A program made the position numbers and the translations under genes. This document shows, piece after piece, positions 365 through 11,468 of a stretch of DNA of 11,468 nucleotides. Under the pieces are notes generated by a model that was not told where the DNA came from, searched no databases, and was given only the letters and a program-made list of their open reading frames with translations. The stretch is from positions 1-11,468 of the forward strand of contig JALLPB010001059.1 in assembly GCA_036939975.1 (NCBI GenBank), in the 5' to 3' direction. Positions within the stretch are counted from its first letter, which is position 1; the number at the start of each line of letters is the position of its first letter. The stretch is from Cyclostephanos tholiformis. Taxonomy: Eukaryota > Bacillariophyta > Thalassiosirophyceae > Thalassiosirales > Thalassiosiraceae.

Positions 365-1325
365 ATGGCTCAGGTAATTTCTTGCAGGATGTCAAGGCTA
401 ATCATTGGCGCGAGGCAACTTATTTCGACGACAGCCTCAACTATGACTCCCAATTTTTCACCCCAAAAGGTGCCCTATCGATGGATGCGTTGCCTCTCGA
501 GCGTCATTCCCGTAAGGCGCATCGAGGCCAGTGGTTTGGACTACGGTGCAACATCCACGCTTGAGGCAGTACCCCCCCAGGACAAGGCCGTGGATTTTGC
601 CGCATTCGCTCACGCTAACCGGCATCTGAAGGTTAAGCCCTTCATCATCAAGCGCCGTATCAAGAAACTGCGGACGTACATCGGCGCCGAGAAGGGCGTA
701 AGGCACTCCCCGTGGAGGATGAATTTGGTATGCCAATTTGCTGCCGGCCTGACGGTACCTGAGGCGTTAAAGCAACTCATGTTCTGTCAGAAGAGGATGG
801 CGCCCCTCGTGGCAAAGGTCATAAGGGACACTGCCAAAGAAGCCGATCGTAGAGATGGGCTACAGCCGAGTCAGTTGGAGGTCGCGGAGTGCTTTTCTAC
901 TCATGGCTCGCATTTGAAGAGGATTAAAATCATGGGGCGAGGTCGGTGAGTATTTAGATTGGTTGTTCGTGGACAGTTCCATTCAACTTGGATGATTGCT
1001 GGAAGTTTCGTCAGCTCCTAAGCTTGCCTTACAACATGATGTGCCGTCCATCTTCTTGCTCTCATATTTCGTTAGTTCTGGTAAAAAACATCGCCGGCAC
1101 TCACATATTCGACTAGTATTGAGAGAGATCGATTTCCCCACTAAATTGTTGCAAGCCACATCAGTGAATCAGAAAAGGAAGTGGCTAGAGGCTTTGAAAT
1201 CTGCTCGAGAGGATTATGAAAAAGCAAGTGTAGAGCGCAAAGAGCTTGCCGAGCTCGAGGCTATGGCCTCTCAGCTCGAGGAAGATGCAAGGAAAAAGGA
1301 GGAAGGACAGAGGGGGAAGATTTAG
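365..1325 (+). CDS. MRPL22: Mitochondrial large-subunit ribosomal protein uL22m (two exons)
   Basis: Component of the mitochondrial ribosome large subunit; in the family, uL22 binds 23S-type rRNA and lines the peptide exit tunnel. Exons are 365-945 and 1076-1325, giving 276 residues. Splicing joins CG to T to make an Arg and rebuilds the family motif GSHLKRIKIMGRGR-SGKKHRRHSH (residues 181-204), which strongly supports the intron. The core runs from about residue 100 (RHSPWRMN, then QKRMAPLVAKVI at 142-153) to about 215. The first ~60 residues are rich in Arg and Ser with few acids, like a mitochondrial presequence; the Met at 389 (MSRLIIGARQL) is the likelier start. Diatom plastids normally encode their own L22, so mitochondrion is the best assignment. 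A charged, probably helical tail (about 225-276) extends past the conserved core. The gene converges on the psbQ' gene. Confidence 0.9.
946..1075 (+). other. Spliceosomal intron of the uL22m gene
   Basis: Intron of 130 nt with donor GTGAGT (946-951) and acceptor TTAG (1072-1075), interrupting an Arg codon after its second base. An in-frame TGA at the donor would end the protein just after GRG-R if the intron were retained. Removing it joins two halves of a motif conserved in the uL22 family. Confidence 0.9.
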
Positions 1326-1819: not shown

Positions 1820-2455
1820 TTAGAGAGAGGCAACGAATTGGTCGAGAATCTTCGCGGAGTTGACAGAGGCAGCAGCGCACTTGTCTTGGTTCTTGAGAGT
1901 TGCTTGAAGATTGGCCTCCTCAATCGCCGCGAAGAACGACTTCGCAATTTTCTTCTGTTCTTCGGTCTGGGCAAGGCCACGGACAGCACCACGGGTCTCG
2001 TACATGTAACGGGTCAATTCGTCCTTAACATTGAACCACTGCTTCTTCGCAACGTATCCTGGGAGTAATGCGAGGCGCTTTTGAGATTCGGCGATAAAGC
2101 CCTTCTTACGCTTAATCTCCTCAGCGTTCCCCTCTTTGTAGAGAGAGCTTTCGCTGGCTTCACCGTAGACAGAGTAAGGTGAGTAAAGGGGGGTAGATTG
2201 GTCAGTGCCAAAGGCAGCGCCCTCTGAGTAGGATCCTCCGTCACCGATCAGTCCGAAAACAGAGAAGCGGGGGCTTTCTCCAGCGGCGGCGTTGGCGACG
2301 GCGGGGAGGATGGCAGCGCCGGCAGCAACGATGGAGGACAGAGCCTCACGGCGGGAGTTCTCGGCCTGCAAGGACAAAGCCGGTCGGGCATTGTTGGCCT
2401 GGGGGGTAAAGGCGGAAACCGAGGCGGCAAAGGTGGCAACAAGAGCGAGCTTCAT
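1820..2455 (-). CDS. psbQ: Oxygen-evolving enhancer protein 3-like, PsbQ' of photosystem II
   Basis: Extrinsic lumenal protein that, in red-lineage algae, binds photosystem II and stabilises the oxygen-evolving complex. The product has 211 residues. Residues 1-15 are a signal peptide cleaved at SVSA|FTP, with Phe16 at the +1 position needed for import into the complex plastid. A short Ala/Ser/Asn-rich transit region follows, then a twin-arginine lumen signal: S34-R35-R36, a hydrophobic Ala-rich stretch (38-54), and a probable cleavage site after ANA (54-56). The mature ~155 residues begin near AAGESPRFSVFGLIGDG. They include YSPYSVYG and the Lys-rich helical bundle region with the motif ELTRYMYETRGAVRGLA, as I recall for diatom PsbQ'. 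The frame stays open 77 codons upstream to an earlier ATG, but only the Met at 2455 gives the proper leader. No intron is needed. It is divergent from the gene at 3019. Confidence 0.88.
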   Translation of the reverse strand: MKLALVATFAASVSAFTPQANNARPALSLQAENSRREALSSIVAAGAAILPAVANAAAGESPRFSVFGLIGDGGSYSEGAAFGTDQSTPLYSPYSVYGEASESSLYKEGNAEEIKRKKGFIAESQKRLALLPGYVAKKQWFNVKDELTRYMYETRGAVRGLAQTEEQKKIAKSFFAAIEEANLQATLKNQDKCAAASVNSAKILDQFVASL

Positions 2456-3018
2456 GGTGAAAGGGGTGTTTGTTTGTGGGAACTTTTCTTGAGTGACGCG
2501 CGGAAAGAGGTCCGTCTGTCTGTCACTTGGTTCAACTTGCGTATCTTTGTTTATTAATTCCGGCATAGCGGGAATTCCACGTAAGTACGTCCACAATACC
2601 TCGGAGGAGTTCCGTAACTCAGATAACGAAGCGCTAGTGAATAGCGGGTAAAATATATATTTTTTAGTAAATTTTCGCGCACACAACCTCCACCCCTCTT
2701 CGGAAATCAGAAAAGTCCGTGAGAAAGAAAGAGAGATATGATGCCGACTTTATTTCTTCTTAACAACTCGGAAAATCAATATATCCGTGTTGCATCGGAC
2801 CGCCGCACTGGGGGTCCCCCCATCAAAACTAGTTGTAGTTACAATACTTTCTTGCAGGTGACGAAGGTCGCGGTTCGAAGAAAGTGATCCGATAATTACT
2901 ACCGCCACGGATCTCGACCTCGCCGGTCTCCAAGCGCAAACAAAATAGGTGATCGAGGCAGAAAGGAGATAACTTACCGCTGAGAAGCAGTACACATTAC
3001 TGGGGAGGATTTCCCAAG
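2456..3018. promoter_or_regulatory. Divergent intergenic/promoter region, psbQ' and the Ser/Asp-rich gene
   Basis: This 563-nt stretch lies between two genes pointing away from each other, so it should hold both promoters. A TATA-like AT block (TATATAT, 2654-2660, inside 2649-2666) sits about 200 nt upstream of the psbQ' start codon. A single TGACGC (2494-2499), a variant of the diatom CO2/cAMP element core, lies 38 nt upstream of that start, probably in the leader. A pyrimidine-rich TTTCTTGCAG (2848-2857) looks like a splice acceptor and could belong to a 5' untranslated exon of the plus-strand gene. None of these is proven by sequence alone. Confidence 0.4.
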
Positions 3019-4828: not shown

Positions 4829-5975
4829 CTATAGCTGACTGAGCTTGTCCCAAGCAACCTGGCCGATGGCAGCATCCTGAGCCCCTGTACCCGTTAAATC
4901 CACCACAATAATCTCGTTCCCCTCTCTTCCAGGTTTGTCGCCATTCACAACTTCACCTAATTCTGCATAAACATCTTCGTCAGTCATGACGCCTGCCTCC
5001 AGAGCTGATCTGAGCTCTCCAACTTTCCTCGTCTGTTTAGTCAAATCACTGATGTATTTTGAGGCCGCGAGCACATTAGGGGGTATCTCATTTTTTGTTG
5101 GTTGATCTGATCCAGATGCAATGATTGTGACACCTCGGGGATTAAGCCAATCTTTCTCCAGAACTGTGGAACCACCAGTGGTCTGCGTGTAAATGATGTC
5201 TGACTTTCTGCAAAGGTCCTGGGCAGATGCCGCCACTTCGAACGGCATACCCAGCTCCTCCGACATTTCTTTCGCAAATGCCTCCGCGCCTTCAAGCGCG
5301 AATGCTATTCCCTTGTATGGACGCACGGTTGCTGCTGCGCGTGCCATGTTTTTGGCAATTGCACCACAGCCGATGAAACCAACAACATCTTGGCCAGGGT
5401 TAGTGCAATACTTCATTGCAATGGCACCTGCTGCCCCGGTACGAAGATCAGTCATGAACCTGTTTTCCTGGAAGACTCCAAGCGGCGCTCCGGTGCTGGC
5501 GCACACTACAATGAAGATTCCTGAGCCAGGCGGAAGGTTCTTCTTCGTATTATTATAAAAGGATACACATGCAAGCTTCACGGTAAAAGTTGGCGTGCTG
5601 GAAACATCTGCCAAACGTCGAAGAGAAGCAATCGTTGTTATATAGGTTGAAGGAACGATATTTAATTCTGAATGCTCGCTAGAGGTACTTACATCCTCCT
5701 TTGATGTGGCAATCACCGGGGCCAGCCACATCACTCTCGTCAATCCCAATGTGCATCGGCATAGGGACATCCACCTTTCCCTTGGCAAGAGCCTTGAATG
5801 CTTCCTCAACGGACTCGATGGCGTCGCCGACGGTCAAGTTGCGCGTGACGGTCTCGTAATCGAAAAGCCGGGGAGGGGGAAACCCACTGGAGGCGAAAGC
5901 ACGGGAAGCTTGAAGTCCGACGATTTTTTGAAGGGGCAAAGCCCTAACTTTTCGAATAATTGACGATGACATCAT
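4829..5975 (-). CDS. Ornithine cyclodeaminase / mu-crystallin family protein (two exons)
   Basis: NAD(P)-dependent family whose members deaminate ornithine to proline or act as ketimine reductases or alanine dehydrogenases. Exons are 5975-5693 and 5607-4829, encoding 353 residues. Splicing creates Tyr95 and restores the family pattern HIKGG-Y-VSSTPTFTVKLA. By comparison with family members, Lys105 (TVKLA) and Arg150 (TDLRTGAAGA) match conserved substrate-binding residues. The Rossmann loop is FIGCGAIAKNMA (172-183). Asp262 in ASGSDQPTKNE corresponds to the catalytic Asp of ornithine cyclodeaminase. The first ~35 residues (MMSSSIIRKVRALPLQK and onward) contain Arg, Lys and Ser but no acidic residue until Asp39, which resembles a mitochondrial presequence. 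The exact substrate cannot be read from sequence, so ketimine reductase is a fair alternative. The gene is divergent from the proteasome-like gene. Confidence 0.88.
5608..5692 (-). other. Spliceosomal intron of the ornithine cyclodeaminase-like gene
   Basis: Intron of 85 nt read on the minus strand from donor GTAAGT (5692-5687) to acceptor GGCAG (ending at 5608). It interrupts a codon after its first base; T plus AT makes Tyr95, the residue expected at this point in the family. Retaining it would stop translation four codons after the junction. Confidence 0.88.
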
Positions 5976-6257
5976 TGTCTGATGAATACTTACGGCGACT
6001 CGGCTTTGATTGTCGTTGATGTTGTTTGCAGTATTGGGAGTTTGTTGAGCTCTGAGGCAGGTACTTTTTATCTATCTCAGAGTTCTCTTTGGTTGTGTGT
6101 GTGTGATGTGTGAGGTGTGTTGCGCGTGTTGTAGTTTAAAGGTGTATTATAACCGGCCACGTCATGATGACGTCGAAAAAAGATTTGGCACACTTCAAGC
6201 CAGCTAGCCCGCCGTTTCTTTTGTTGCACTTTTTTTGTCCTCCATGATGTACGTAGC
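5976..6257. promoter_or_regulatory. Divergent promoter region, ornithine cyclodeaminase-like and proteasome-like genes
   Basis: This 282-nt stretch separates two start codons on opposite strands and should hold both promoters. It includes a GT-rich microsatellite (about 6091-6129) and a TATA-like TATTATAA (6145-6152). A GTAAGT on the minus strand (5992-5987), just upstream of the cyclodeaminase ATG, could mark a 5' untranslated intron, but I see no convincing acceptor. Confidence 0.5.
6159..6173. promoter_or_regulatory. Paired CRE-like element ACGTCA-TGA-TGACGT
   Basis: Two perfect inverted 6-bp arms, ACGTCA (6159-6164) and TGACGT (6168-6173), are separated by TGA. Each arm is the core of bZIP (CREB/ATF-type) binding sites. 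The same core forms the CO2/cAMP-responsive elements described in the promoter of a Phaeodactylum plastid carbonic anhydrase. It sits 85-99 bp upstream of the proteasome-like ATG and about 184-198 bp from the cyclodeaminase ATG, so either or both genes could use it. Confidence 0.5.
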
Positions 6258-7619
6258 ATGCATCCAATCTCACCTTTCAAAAAAAATACCACACAGCGTC
6301 CAGGCCCAGAGATGATAATATCCCTCTTATTCTTCTTCGAAATATTGCTACACGCCTCTGCCAGCAGTCATGGCAGCTCGAGGGGACACCACAGCCGCCG
6401 ATACGCCGCATATGACTACGACTTGACTACACCGCAATTCACACCTGATGGGAGATTGTTGCAAGTGGAATACGCCACCAACGCGTGTGTACGTGAGGAT
6501 AGCAACCCTATAGTGAGCATTGGCATTACATTGCCGGGCGTTGGGGAAACCATACTAATTATGGCAACAGTATCATCTCCGCCACCATCATCTACCTCAT
6601 CTCTCTCTACAACAATGCGCGTGAACCCGTTGGAAGGAGGAGGACGAGCTACAGACGGACAGGCGGAATTGTATGATGAGAACGAAATTAACTTATTCAT
6701 GAAAGAAAAACATCAGCGTGCGCAATTTAGAATTATTGAAGTTCCACTTTCTTCTAGTGGCACCTCGTTTCAGCATTCAACAATGCTCGTGGGGCTATCG
6801 GGCCTATTATCGGATGCCACCACATTGCTGCAGATTATCTATTCTCATTTAGAACAAGAGCAACGTATGATGGGCTGGCACCGTTTGGGGTTGAGTCCCG
6901 TTGGCGTTAGCGCGATCAATGAAGGTAGTCGTGGCGGTGCCACTAATTTTTTCCCACGTCAATCAATTTTCACGCAGCCGTCGGAAACTGTACTTCGCCT
7001 CTCACGTGCACTTGCAGCTGAGTGTCAGAAACATGCATTTGGAGGGGGGCTGAGGCCATTTGGTGCATCCCTTTTATTGGCCGGGGTTGACAGTTGCCCA
7101 TATGTTCTCAACAAAAACAACAATACACATTTATGGCGCGGGGCAAGGGTGGCGATGTGTGAAACTCATCCAAACGGAGGATGGAGGAATTCTATAACTA
7201 CTGTGCGCGATGAGTACAGTATTGGCCACGGCGAAACTACAGTGGCTGGTGCAACCTCTCCTCAGATCATGATCTCGGGAGGTTGTATTCAATCCCAACG
7301 CAAGTTAAAAAAATTGATTTGGAACCGGTTACACAATATGCCTCTTGGGGTTTCCAATCATCAGATAAATATCAGTCTTGGGATTAGTAAAAATTGCGTC
7401 GAAACATTATATCTGCGTAAGGTTTTGGAAACGGTCACATCATCATTAGTAGAAGAATGGCAGAATCGCGGGGATATTCATATCAAATCATTAGTGAATG
7501 CCAAATCGGGTCAGCATTATTCGAATCTTCCTCAGATGGAAGTTGTAATCGCTTCATCCAGTCGAGGGACACATCGCCTCATGGAAAATGATGTTGCTCG
7601 GATTTTGATGCCGAACTGA
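6258..7619 (+). CDS. Divergent proteasome alpha-subunit-like protein with N-terminal signal peptide
   Basis: The reading frame encodes 453 residues without introns. The Met at residue 19 (position 6312) starts a good signal peptide, MIISLLFFFEILLHASA, cleaved near residues 34-36. A proteasome alpha N-terminal signature follows: YDYDLTTPQFTPDGRLLQVEYA (52-73; normal form YDxxxTxFSPDGRLxQVEYA). Two further alpha-type landmarks are GLSGLLSDATTLLQ (179-192) and RPFGASLLLAGVD (266-278). Normal alpha subunits have about 230-260 residues. This one has a Ser/Pro/Thr-rich insertion (about 105-122) and some 150 extra, unrecognised C-terminal residues with at least one Asn-X-Ser/Thr site. No Met lies just before the signature, so the leader is not an annotation artefact. 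The residue after the predicted cleavage is Ser, not the Phe expected for plastid import, so the ER or secretory route is likelier. A role in a standard 20S core is doubtful. Function is unknown. Confidence 0.75.
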   Translation: MHPISPFKKNTTQRPGPEMIISLLFFFEILLHASASSHGSSRGHHSRRYAAYDYDLTTPQFTPDGRLLQVEYATNACVREDSNPIVSIGITLPGVGETILIMATVSSPPPSSTSSLSTTMRVNPLEGGGRATDGQAELYDENEINLFMKEKHQRAQFRIIEVPLSSSGTSFQHSTMLVGLSGLLSDATTLLQIIYSHLEQEQRMMGWHRLGLSPVGVSAINEGSRGGATNFFPRQSIFTQPSETVLRLSRALAAECQKHAFGGGLRPFGASLLLAGVDSCPYVLNKNNNTHLWRGARVAMCETHPNGGWRNSITTVRDEYSIGHGETTVAGATSPQIMISGGCIQSQRKLKKLIWNRLHNMPLGVSNHQINISLGISKNCVETLYLRKVLETVTSSLVEEWQNRGDIHIKSLVNAKSGQHYSNLPQMEVVIASSSRGTHRLMENDVARILMPN

Positions 7620-8032
7620 GTCTTATGTACCGGTTGACCAAAGTTGGGCCCTAAAAGAGTGATCTGGAGATATGAGATATGTGGTGGCATCTAGAAAAAC
7701 GCTCGAGAGCCGTTCGTGCATTATCGCATGCTCAATAATTCTAACTGTTCCAGCTGATACATAGTCAGCATCTTCTGCATACACTTTAACACAAATACCT
7801 GGACGCTTACTCGAAGAAGATGTATCACTACAGTGCTACTAAGACCAACCTATCTGGCAACCTTCTTCAATGTGTTCTACAGAGCTTCGGCGACATTTCA
7901 AAAAAAAACTACATCATGACTTGACTTTGCGTAGCACATATTATTACACATAATGTATGATTAACATTAAAAAAACTCCCTTTAAGTTACAAATATATAC
8001 TGGGTGACTGTCAAAATTCATCGTAGAAACTC
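7620..8032. other. Intergenic DNA downstream of the proteasome-like gene
   Basis: No gene is supportable on either strand. The base composition turns AT-rich near 7910, with A-runs (7900-7906, 7970-7975). It presumably contains the 3' untranslated region of the upstream gene. Confidence 0.5.
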
Positions 8033-8130
8033 TTTAGACCACCAGTCTAAACTCGGTCTAAATCCTTCAAATAATATAAAATAGACTCGGAAATGCCCAA
8101 TAAAATTTCGACCACCAAAGTTTAGACCAC
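8033..8130. repeat. Cluster of TTTAGAC / GTCTAAA inverted and direct repeats
   Basis: The 7-mer TTTAGAC occurs at 8033-8039 and 8121-8127, and its complement GTCTAAA at 8045-8051 and 8056-8062. The first pair forms a perfect 7-bp hairpin with loop CACCA. Both forward copies extend to TTTAGACCAC, and GACCACCA also occurs twice (8037-8044, 8110-8117). It may be a degraded inverted-repeat element or a binding-site array. Confidence 0.6.
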
Positions 8131-8723
8131 ACCCCCCCTCATCACACATGTTTTTTGGACCATTCAAATTACCAAGCCAATAGGGGCTTTGCCACTGACT
8201 GACAAAGAAGTGTTTTTTCTCTCATTCTTTGGTACAAATATGGTAAGTAGGATTTTTTTGGGGGGCGATTGAGAAAAGGGGGGAGCTCCACAGGCTAGGG
8301 ATTCACATACTAGATGTAACTTCTCTTCAAGCCGGATGTACGTACTGAATCTACCTACCTACTTAGTAGTCTACTTGATAGACACACATGGGAAGTGGAA
8401 GATCCATTTGGGTGACAAAGTTTGACAGACAATCGACAACAACAACCCACATTAAATCTTTTTATCTATCTGAGTTCATTGGCTTGGATCTGAGCACAAC
8501 AGTAGGTCACAGTTCATCCCATATTTCATGGGGCTCCCTCAAGGGCTTCCTTTTTAGTGCCATCAGAAAGGTACGTTGCATTCCCCATTGCATCAGCTGA
8601 CAAGGGAGAGTTAGATGATGCCATGTTTACTGTGAAAATGGGTTTGGTCTTGAATACATTAAATCCCTCGCTGGTATTCAACCAAGGGGTCCATACTTGT
8701 CCTAGGTTATTAATTACATTTTT
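8131..8723. other. Gene-poor AT-rich DNA, no supported gene
   Basis: Contains C and G homopolymers (8132-8138, 8260-8265, 8278-8284) and CTAC microsatellite-like DNA (8351-8364). One ATG-initiated frame of 70 codons (8388-8600) shows no recognisable domain. It carries a donor-like GTACGT at 8571 but no convincing partner exon, so I do not call it a gene. Confidence 0.45.
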
Positions 8724-8869
8724 AGGATTCCTGTTTTGCTTTTGTGAAATCAAGTAATTTTCAGGATTCCAAGGATTCCTGAGTAATTCTTTTTTTGGAG
8801 TAATTTTGATGACACTAACATTTTTTTAGGCCCCCAAAACAGTAATCAGGATTCCTGCAGGAATTCCTG
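8724..8869. repeat. Cluster of AGGATTCCTG near-palindromes
   Basis: AGGATTCCTG occurs at 8724-8733, 8772-8781 and 8848-8857, with a shorter AGGATTCC at 8763-8770. The last copy merges into two overlapping perfect palindromes, ATTCCTGCAGGAAT (8851-8864) and CAGGAATTCCTG (8858-8869). All share the AGGAAT/ATTCCT core. It is either a small interspersed repeat family or a protein-binding array. Confidence 0.65.
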
Positions 8870-9194
8870 TTTCCCACTACCAGACTAGTAACAAACTTTG
8901 GATGCTCAGAACTATTTTGGAAAGTTGGGGTTAGGCAAAGCCAGGAAATTGACATTTTGGTGACATGGTTGAGGCTGTTACCACTGCTTACTTGATCACA
9001 CATTTATATTGTATGTATATAAAGTGTTTGAGCACTTTCATATGCTGTGGATGGGCATATGGCAACATAAGGATGTGCTGAAGCTAAAAGCCAATAAGAT
9101 TCACTGCCAGAAGTTTTCAAACAAAAGAAAGTTTCTTTAGATGCAATTAGATATGGCCATTTAGAAGGAACAAGAACTACTCAAATTATGGTCA
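8870..9194. other. AT-rich DNA without a supported gene
   Basis: No domain or convincing start is seen on either strand. CATATG occurs twice 17 bp apart (about 9040-9062), a weak palindromic repeat. Nothing else is notable. Confidence 0.45.
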
Positions 9195-9313
9195 GTTCTA
9201 ACTTAACTCTAGAGTTAGACACTTTTTGCCTAACTGTAACTCTGCTAACTTTCGATTTTGAAAAAAAATGCTAACTTGAACTTTGCTAACTCTTGATTTT
9301 TTGAAAAAAGCTG
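9195..9313. repeat. TAACT-rich array with a 41-bp tandem repeat
   Basis: A perfect 14-bp palindrome TAACTCTAGAGTTA (9204-9217) precedes several CTAACT/GTAACT words. Two diverged copies of a 41-bp unit follow, starting at 9243 and 9284. Each has the order TGCTAACT, then GATTTT-TTGAAAA, then GC. The T-then-A tracts could themselves form a weak hairpin. This looks like a small local tandem duplication. Confidence 0.55.
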
Positions 9314-9840
9314 CAAGGTTGGAGTTTTTCATTCCCGCCAGAAGGCAAATAGCTGTTAAGCTGTTAAGCAATGGTCCACGACTTAGGGGGTCCGGTGGAA
9401 TAAATGTGATTTTTTCAAAATGCGCCCACACCATTTCTGAGTATTTTAAACTGCTATCCTGTGTTCCAATATGATATCCTGAATGTTTCATTAGAAAAAA
9501 ATGACCAGAATCCACCCGTTGGGTGCACCAAACATTGAAATGTTTTGTGCTAACAAATTAGCCAATTTTACATGCTATTTTGAGCCATATCTGTATAAGC
9601 CATAAAAGATGTATATGGACTTTTGAAGTATGCAAAAATGTTTATTTACATATGCAAAAGATGTATATTAAGTTATGAAACTTTATTGCAACGTTTTGGG
9701 TTTATTAGGGCTGCCAAGCATTGGTGGGGTCCTGCTAATGAAATTTCCAATTTATCTCGTGTTTTCACAAGCTTCTAAACAAAGTTTCACGTAGGATTTT
9801 GGTACATTTTACATAGGAATTCAAGAGGGGGGGGGGGTAA
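9314..9840. other. AT-rich intergenic DNA with short direct repeat and 11-G run
   Basis: No gene is supported. AAAAGATGTATAT is repeated exactly at 9604-9616 and 9656-9668, 52 bp apart, within DNA that also repeats TATGCAAAA. A run of 11 G (9827-9837) ends the stretch. Confidence 0.5.
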
Positions 9841-10265
9841 ACAACAATTTAATCATCATTGTTATCCATTTTCTATCATCCGTTGTCTGTTGCCACCACC
9901 ATGCACTGTTTGTTGTGTTTGTTGTTGCTGTTGTTGTCACTATTTCTGTCGCCACTGTTGCCTGCCATCACCCATCATCTGCTGCTCACTCTCATTGGTC
10001 ATCTCAACTTACTTATATGTCAACCACTGCTCTCATAATGTTGTCTGATGCCTGCCACCTGCTGCCTGCGCAACTACTTTTAACTGCAGTTTTCGATGCA
10101 ACTCTCTTCTTGCCCATCTACTATTTGATTGTTGTTTCTTTTTGTTTGTGTCCGTCTTCTGCCATTCATCGTCCATTGTCCATTGTCCATTGGTTATTGT
10201 CTGTTGTCTTGTTGTCTCTCCTTCCGCTGCCAATGCCACTGACACAACCCCCTTGCCTAACTACT
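9841..10265. repeat. Strand-asymmetric T/C-rich, TTG-rich low-complexity block
   Basis: The plus strand is strongly enriched in T and C and in the words TTG, GTT, CTG and CCA. Examples are a GTTGTTGCTGTTGTTG tract (9921-9936) and three exact tandem copies of TCCATTG (10172-10192). Hydrophobic open frames here (such as 9915-10292, which starts at GTG, and a 45-codon Leu-rich frame from the ATG at 9901) follow from this composition and are not credible genes. Confidence 0.6.
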
Positions 10266-10604
10266 TTAAAGGTTGATTGTAGAATTTTTTAAACCTCAAC
10301 AGTGCCAGGTGCCAGCACCAGCACTATGGCAATAGTCTTAAGGGCACCATCCCCTCCTTCATCAAGGGAGGAGGGGGGGGGACAAAAATTGATGGATCCA
10401 CCACACTCTGACAGTGCCCAACACAAAAAATCCCTGAAAAAACAAATCTGTGGGCATTCAATCCCGCCTTAGGGAAGTAGGTTCAATTGGGGGGGATCCT
10501 GTAGGATGGACGGTGGGGGTGGTGGCTAAATGAGAGCATCAGCGCAAAAAAGGCTTAAATTTAGCATCCATAAGCATTTTGATGGTAATTTTTTTTTAGG
10601 GGGG
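10266..10604. other. Gene-free DNA with poly-G tracts
   Basis: Runs of 9 G (10373-10381) and 11 G (10599-10609) occur, the second preceded by nine T and an A. Short words such as GTGCCAG recur. No coding signal or RNA gene is seen. Confidence 0.5.
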
Positions 10605-10701
10605 GGGGGCGCCCATAGAGCAGATTTTGCCAATGCTACCGCATACCCCCCTCACATTCTTATGTGGTAGTGTAAAGAGAATTTGCTCTAAGGGCACCCC
10701 C
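10605..10701 (+). repeat. Long inverted repeat, 41-nt arms with 15-nt loop
   Basis: The arms are 10605-10645 and 10661-10701, aligned without gaps, with a C-rich loop (10646-10660). Thirty of 41 positions are Watson-Crick pairs. Five of the 11 mismatches become G-U pairs if the plus strand is transcribed, giving 35 of 41. The best blocks are GAGCAGATTTT pairing with GAATTTGCTC, and CTACCGCATA pairing with TATGTGGTAG. It could be a foldback or MITE-like element, or a hairpin RNA. No gene is associated. Confidence 0.6.
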
Positions 10702-10870
10702 TTCTTGAAAAGCCTGGCAAAGAAATAGGACGGGGCACGAAGTGGGAAAAAGTTGGAAAAAGGGGTCGGGTGGAAATGATGTTTTGGGACCAGACCATAT
10801 TGGTCCCGGCAATTTGAGACCCCAAAAAAATCTCCTGCCAATTTTGGGACCCAAAAAAATCAGTTAAAGC
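10702..10870. repeat. GGGACC / GGTCCC repeat region
   Basis: GGGACCA (10786-10792) and TGGTCCC (10801-10807) form a perfect 7-bp inverted repeat with an 8-nt loop. TTTTGGGACC occurs twice, and GACCC-type words followed by CAAAAAAATC also occur twice (about 10817-10861), so a segment of roughly 40 bp appears partly duplicated. Confidence 0.45.
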
Positions 10871-11250
10871 TACCTACTGGACCCCTACAATGCTGTCTCG
10901 TAAATGGGAAGCTAAAAGAGCTAAGTAGAACGTAGACCTCAGGTTTATAGCTCAAAGAGGTGCACACAACCAAGACATCACCATGATGAATTGCAAAAAA
11001 ATCATCAAACCAAATGCAATGGTTGCAACGGGATTCATGGGTATTGCTTGAATTGTCTCGTAGATAGGAGGACAGCTATCTTGTCCAATATGTATCTATT
11101 TGTAGGAATTAAGAAATTTGGGTGTATGCGGCTGTACATAGCAATACTTGTCCTCATGTATGCTTCAGCAGCATATTGTTTAACAACAGCCTATTCAATG
11201 GTACTTAGTTAACCGGCATTTTGGGTCCAGGTTTTGGTAACATTTTTTTT
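10871..11250. other. AT-rich DNA, no supported gene
   Basis: An open frame (10991-11212) begins at TTG and resembles no known protein. Its last 28 codons, from the ATG at 11126, read like a signal peptide (MRLYIAILVLMYASAAYC). With no following exon visible this is not enough for a gene call. Confidence 0.4.
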
Positions 11251-11252
11251 AG

Positions 11253-11267
11253 CTAGCATAATGCTAG
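11253..11267. repeat. Perfect 7-bp inverted repeat CTAGCAT-A-ATGCTAG
   Basis: Near-continuous palindrome with a single central base, following a run of eight T. It lies about 80 bp from the larger palindrome at 11345. Confidence 0.6.
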
Positions 11268-11294
11268 TTAAATTGCGATCCCACTCCCAACATT

Positions 11295-11377
11295 GATGGT
11301 AATATCTAATATCGGAGACTAAAGGGGGATTGGTCATCACGTGCTGATATTAGGTCAGACCTAATATCACCATCGAA
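11295..11377. repeat. Palindrome cluster built on TAATATC / GATATTA
   Basis: The core is a 25-bp perfect palindrome (11345-11369) with 12-bp arms TGATATTAGGTC and GACCTAATATCA around one A. TAATATC is also directly repeated at 11300-11306 and 11307-11313. The word GATGGT at 11295-11300 is mirrored by ACCATC just after the palindrome, so the whole block is a larger imperfect inverted repeat. A CACGTG box (11338-11343) lies inside it. The window ends before any further context. Confidence 0.6.
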
Positions 11378-11468
11378 CACAAGTGTTTTATAGTTCTGGC
11401 AATTGTATTGCATGCAGAACCACCATCTGATTGTCGATGCACAATCCGGCCAGCATGTTAACACTGTC

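Follow-up and report, generated by a model that had tools for sequence, protein, structure and literature searches.

We analysed an 11,468-nucleotide stretch of the Cyclostephanos tholiformis genome (assembly GCA_036939975.1, contig JALLPB010001059.1, forward strand; hereafter the window), in which an open reading frame (ORF) of 453 amino acids at positions 6258..7619 of the plus strand encodes a proteasome alpha-like protein. With a probability that we put at roughly 0.8, the gene specifies an alpha-type subunit of the 20S proteasome of the diatom periplastid compartment (PPC). Sequence comparison and prediction support this reading: the protein has a conserved hydrophobic leader and both the signature and the fold of an alpha subunit, its leader-bearing relatives form a monophyletic family, and the same assembly contains genes for beta2, beta4, beta5 and beta6 that also carry leaders. 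Conservation among relatives rules out a chance ORF.

Of 7994 candidates scored in a protein search, 139 reached E <= 1e-3, and the best 120 of these were considered; one of the 120, P0002, is the window's own fragment. The first-pass annotation had proposed looking for orthologues that share the leader, and proteins with a leader were found widely among the listed relatives; those named by organism belong to Thalassiosira, Skeletonema, Cyclotella and one Bacillariaceae assembly. A proteasome name at any source was attached to 18 of the 120, the rest being unnamed, 'hypothetical' or carrying a transcript or gene label, and given such scarce naming leader-bearing alpha genes are easily missed. 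Because the two closest of the listed relatives, P0003 (79 % identity) and P0004 (78 %), both begin at the position of Met19, translation likely starts at this codon (6312), giving a protein of 435 amino acids; the nearest in-frame stop upstream of 6258 lies at 6168. Alignment A1 has 106 rows, namely P0001 plus 105 relatives from the list of 120, the other 15 (P0002 among them) having been left out; P0001 and 19 others, 20 of the 120 in all, went into the trees. The leader-bearing alpha family was monophyletic, with support of 100/100 in one tree and 99/98 in a tree including a second alpha-like gene of the assembly (C1440), and sits on a very long branch.

The alpha signature reported in the first-pass annotation was recovered as a PF10584 match above the cut-off (E 9.6e-10, 38.4 bits against 27.7), and the two later alpha landmarks, GLSGLLSDATTLLQ and RPFGASLLLAGVD, as well as the low-complexity insertion, were likewise found (Table 1). 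Structure prediction, suggested there as a check, yielded an alpha-type N-terminal nucleophile (Ntn) hydrolase sandwich and not a model lacking this fold. The supposed large C-terminal extension did not hold up: structural matches to 20S alpha chains cover the model from residue 53 through to residue 453, and the extra length sits in loop insertions, mostly of low confidence in the model. An appended C-terminal domain is ruled out by the predicted model and by the short relatives. Given the predicted cleavage site, sequence and alignment place the signature helix, with no catalytic Thr, at the mature N-terminus. Two positions of A1 stand out. The position of Thermoplasma alpha Lys66, which we take to be the activator-pocket lysine, is occupied by Arg in 104 of the 106 rows (one Lys, one gap), and the column of Cys256 holds Cys in all 106.

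Table 1 Features of the alpha gene, with residues counted from position 6258
Feature	Position	Strand	Evidence
Alpha subunit coding sequence from Met19 (435 aa), likely start	6312..7619	+	Comparison with P0003 and P0004; listed ORF opens at 6258
Signal-peptide-like leader, residues 19-35, h-region IISLLFFFEILL, best-scoring cleavage between ASA and SS	6312..6362	+	Hydropathy, -3/-1 rule
Short Ser/Arg/His-rich stretch past the predicted cleavage, possible transit-peptide-like element; +1 residue Ser	6363..6416	+	Site rule
Alpha-type Ntn-hydrolase sandwich with loop insertions, residues 53-453	6414..7616	+	Predicted structure
Proteasome alpha N-terminal signature PF10584, residues 54-76	6417..6485	+	Pfam match
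Ser/Pro/Thr-rich stretch (106-119) and loop insertion after predicted strand 98-106; residues 106-157	6573..6728	+	
Arg158, aligned with Thermoplasma alpha Lys66	6729..6731	+	Alignment A1
Landmark GLSGLLSDATTLLQ, residues 179-192	6792..6833	+	Sequence, model
Cys256, in predicted helix 241-261 (helix 2)	7023..7025	+	Alignment A1, model
Landmark RPFGASLLLAGVD, residues 266-278	7053..7091	+	Sequence

To judge the leader we utilized hydropathy and a simple -3/-1 cleavage rule of our own devising. The signature was found in 104 of 120 proteins (P0001 and P0003 to P0121), 102 of which have at least 18 residues ahead of it. The hydrophobic leader described in the first-pass annotation proved widespread in the family, with a 10-residue mean hydropathy of at least 1.8 in 95 of these 102 testable members as against 29 % of random 40-amino-acid pieces from the mature part; a threshold of 2.3 was reached by 84 of the 102 and by 6 % of the random pieces. 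Among the seven members below 1.8, P0012, P0016, P0038, P0059 and P0121 look truncated, and P0048 (1.71) and P0104 (1.57) fall just under. Only 2-7 residues precede the signature in the ordinary alpha1-alpha5 of the same assembly.

A cleavage site could be assigned by the simple rule in 94 members, the predicted +1 residue being Ser in 57 and non-aromatic in 91, aromatic in 3 (all Tyr) and Phe in none. PMC5756292 states that diatom proteins without Phe after the cleavage site stay in the periplastid space; Ser rather than Phe at this position therefore points to the PPC and not the stroma, and the protein probably enters the endoplasmic reticulum (ER) first and then the PPC. The leader followed by a Ser/Arg-rich stretch does resemble a bipartite plastid presequence, as a protein bound for the plastid stroma would carry, but the scarcity of aromatic +1 residues, the statement just cited and the plastid-type SAF motif seen in the PsbQ-like neighbour all speak against that destination, which we consider extremely improbable.

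The assembly, of 24.95 Mb in 1566 contigs, looks incomplete. Of the seven ordinary alpha subunits that one would expect to find elsewhere in the genome, alpha1-alpha6 were found (the first exon of alpha6 is unassembled), whereas ordinary alpha7, like ordinary beta5, was not found in this assembly; we assume that the incomplete assembly accounts for both. The missing alpha7 could also suggest that the leader is bypassed, by a downstream start or dual targeting, and that the gene supplies a cytosolic alpha, perhaps the organism's only alpha7. The window protein however has no Met between leader and signature, the leader is present in all six members from MMETSP transcriptomes (P0010, P0028, P0041, P0046, P0058 and P0100), so that transcripts starting without it were not seen there, beta5 is equally missing, which fits an incomplete assembly, and the family branch is very long. 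We regard such a bypass as very unlikely.

The six ordinary alphas of the assembly each group with the matching human orthologue at a support of 100/100. The nearest ordinary alpha to the leader-bearing family in the tree is alpha7, with support of 93/87 on long branches. Residues that the family has in common with just one ordinary type numbered five for alpha7, two each for alpha5 and alpha6, one each for alpha3 and alpha4 and none for alpha1 or alpha2, a count in which alpha7 was represented by one row (human) and the other types by up to two, so that alpha7 matches are easier to obtain. The five include YDL, GLL and the Arg at the Lys66 position, which human alpha7 likewise carries. Typing by fold was rejected, the matches being tied within about 1 Z, with human chains Q/C, presumably alpha4, ranking high; typing by profile was also set aside, its leading matches being a spinach alpha (alpha4-like by eye), archaeal alphas and yeast PRE6. 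We favour an alpha7-like (PSMA3) subunit, with reserve and as an assignment that is not proven.

Four beta genes with hydrophobic leaders were identified in the assembly, which we take from their motifs, read by eye, to be beta2 (C916, L026), beta4 (C257, L044), beta5 (C43, L024) and beta6 (C516, L046); in the beta4 gene the leader consists of consecutive Leu codons. The beta2 with a leader is part of a broad family in which a strict motif with equivalents of T1 and D17 is present in 104 of 120 rows, all 104 also having the K33 equivalent, while 16 rows fall outside the motif. A hydrophobic leader was scored in 82 of 97 testable beta2 rows, looking no further than residue 100 and without a random control. 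For beta5 the ordinary type served as control: the HGTTT site occurs in 93 of 120 rows, 50 of a GSK type and 43 ordinary, and the leader in 29 of 33 testable GSK-type rows versus 0 of 36 ordinary ones. Ordinary-looking subunits, again by eye, are beta4 (C431, first exon unassembled) and beta6 (C477). An HslV-like protease subunit, recognised by eye on C139 (L028), is perhaps mitochondrial.

The assembly also contains a second, very divergent leader-bearing alpha-like gene (C1440, L045), whose start was not seen, with Gly-/Asp-rich insertions, a decayed alpha signature and PF00227 matches below the cut-off (19.9 and 16.2 bits). Compared with human alpha3 and with human alpha5, the helix-1 piece of this gene reaches a score of 60 in both cases, against 45 with the window protein; placing the gene in a tree was abandoned as it is too divergent (end branch 3.49). 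A leader-bearing Cdc48-like gene on C1092 (L049, L057), with a sub-threshold CDC48_N match and AAA exons read by eye, appears to be of the type expected of the motor of the SELMA translocon; no HbYX tail was seen on it, the last exon read ending in LLSG.

Assignment to a PPC 20S proteasome has to be weighed against several observations. The PF00227 match of the window protein (residues 246-278) reaches 19.9 bits against a cut-off of 22.4, which is a library threshold and not a biological feature, and many of the listed relatives do carry PF00227 in precomputed annotation; an NCBIfam scan of the protein gave archaeal alpha models alone, all below cut-off. The sub-threshold PF00227 match and the strong divergence of the family, the window protein sharing 26-33 % identity with most of the distant rows of A1, would suit a non-proteasomal family that kept nothing but the alpha fold. 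The N-terminal signature, which is ring-building, nevertheless ranks among the best-conserved parts of the family, and leader-bearing beta partners exist, making such a change of role highly unlikely. As to type, approximately unbiased (AU) tests reject none of the alpha1-alpha6 or archaeal alpha placements (p 0.08-0.25), and alpha4-type and archaeal chains are among the first profile and fold matches. The types of the leader-bearing beta genes are by-eye calls, and both PPC localisation and 20S assembly of the subunit are inferred from sequence.

A further difficulty is that in half of the 94 members at most 13 residues (minimum 5) separate the predicted cleavage site from the signature. Over all 94 the median gap is 13 residues; its net charge is zero in 46 members, while 44 have a positive and 4 a negative charge there. 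Because the gap is short in many members, the transit-peptide-like element may be short or missing altogether, and the ER lumen stays a conceivable destination. The clear leader combined with so short and mostly neutral or positive a stretch would fit an ER-lumenal, secreted or vacuolar protein which, with its leader-bearing partners, would form an endomembrane proteasome. However no N-glycosylation sequon is conserved in A1 (best column 12 of 106 rows, which also rules out a conserved glycoprotein), no KDEL-like C-terminus was seen on the window protein, and the passages on periplastid proteasomes in PMC5070193 and PMC5756292 place leader-bearing diatom 20S subunits in the PPC, so we consider this alternative unlikely.

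Elsewhere in the window, an ornithine cyclodeaminase/mu-crystallin family gene (4832-5809, minus strand; PF02423, E 2.7e-40) lies head to head with the alpha gene, and a possible first exon of it at 5682-5975 (minus strand), read by eye, could encode a mitochondrial presequence. A PsbQ-like protein is encoded at 1823-2686 (minus strand; PF05757, 21.7 bits, below the cut-off of 26.9), its inner start MKLALVATFAASVSAFTPQ displaying the plastid-type motif as SAFTPQ. The last 85 residues of an ORF at 365-946 (plus strand) match ribosomal protein L22 (PF00237, E 4.1e-17). Two ORFs tested in 7630-11468 gave no Pfam match, and short tandem repeats occur at 9230-9309 and 9629-9671. An Rfam scan of the window gave no match.

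As a subunit of the PPC 20S proteasome, the protein would be directed by its leader into the ER and then moved by the SELMA translocon into the PPC, with no onward step to the stroma. In that compartment it would take its place in an alpha ring gating the beta chamber of a separate 20S particle, inside which beta2 and beta5, whose catalytic residues are seen in the leader-bearing partners, would cut. Working without a 19S cap, the particle would clear the former cytoplasm of the red alga of proteins that are misfolded or in excess. The Arg where most alphas have the pocket lysine, the invariant Cys and the many loop insertions, which are unmapped on the ring, suggest a further, rather doubtful idea: that the diatom periplastid 20S is re-engineered and uncapped, its alpha set reduced or strongly altered, and may open without 19S- or Cdc48-type tails as a housekeeping peptidase. 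Human alpha7 however also has Arg at this position, and a second leader-bearing alpha-like gene exists on C1440. If true, tail-free opening would help explain how ubiquitin-driven import stays separate from degradation.

The compartment-specific PPC proteasome has been studied mainly in Phaeodactylum, and Stork 2012 reportedly expanded and localised the set of periplastid 20S components. The first-pass annotation envisaged an alpha paralogue routed to the ER or a plastid compartment; the leader and the distinctness from ordinary alpha1-alpha6 support this, whereas its supposed novelty does not stand, as such subunits are already published for plastid-bearing heterokonts. PMC5070193 states that in plastid-bearing heterokonts this compartment holds only 20S core subunits, host-encoded and delivered by signal peptides, crediting Moog 2011, Stork 2012 and Lau 2016, and suggests that Cdc48 hands substrates over to the PPC proteasome. 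A passage of PMC5756292 describes diatom periplastid 20S proteasomes without a 19S cap and the localisation of two of their proteins; between them the two papers cite Moog 2011, Stork 2012, Lau 2016 and Maier 2015 for this particle. Because signal-peptide-bearing 20S subunits of the heterokont PPC are thus already reported, the present gene is not a new phenomenon but most likely a further member of a described system, and its orthologue may be among the reported subunits. What it adds is a broad sequence family, together with alpha and beta genes from one genome that carry leaders and form a partly matched set. From these one can draw up candidate catalytic partners and the pocket residues of the alpha subunit, which helps to ask whether SELMA import is uncoupled from PPC degradation.

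With ordinary alpha7 (PSMA3) of the 26S proteasome the window protein shares five exclusive residues and its adjacency in the tree, and its family differs in the leader, several loop insertions, the invariant Cys256 and a very long branch. Archaeal alpha is among the best PDB matches by sequence and similar in fold, but the window family has Arg for Lys66, a leader and insertions. The cryptophyte nucleomorph proteasome is, like the PPC 20S, a second proteasome in a remnant red-algal cytoplasm; it is nucleomorph-encoded with both core and cap, according to PMC5070193, whereas the present genes are nuclear and carry leaders. The heterokont PPC 20S shares with the present gene nuclear, signal-peptide-bearing 20S subunit genes, accompanied here by a leader-bearing Cdc48-like gene, and the two would share a compartment as predicted from the sequence of the window protein.
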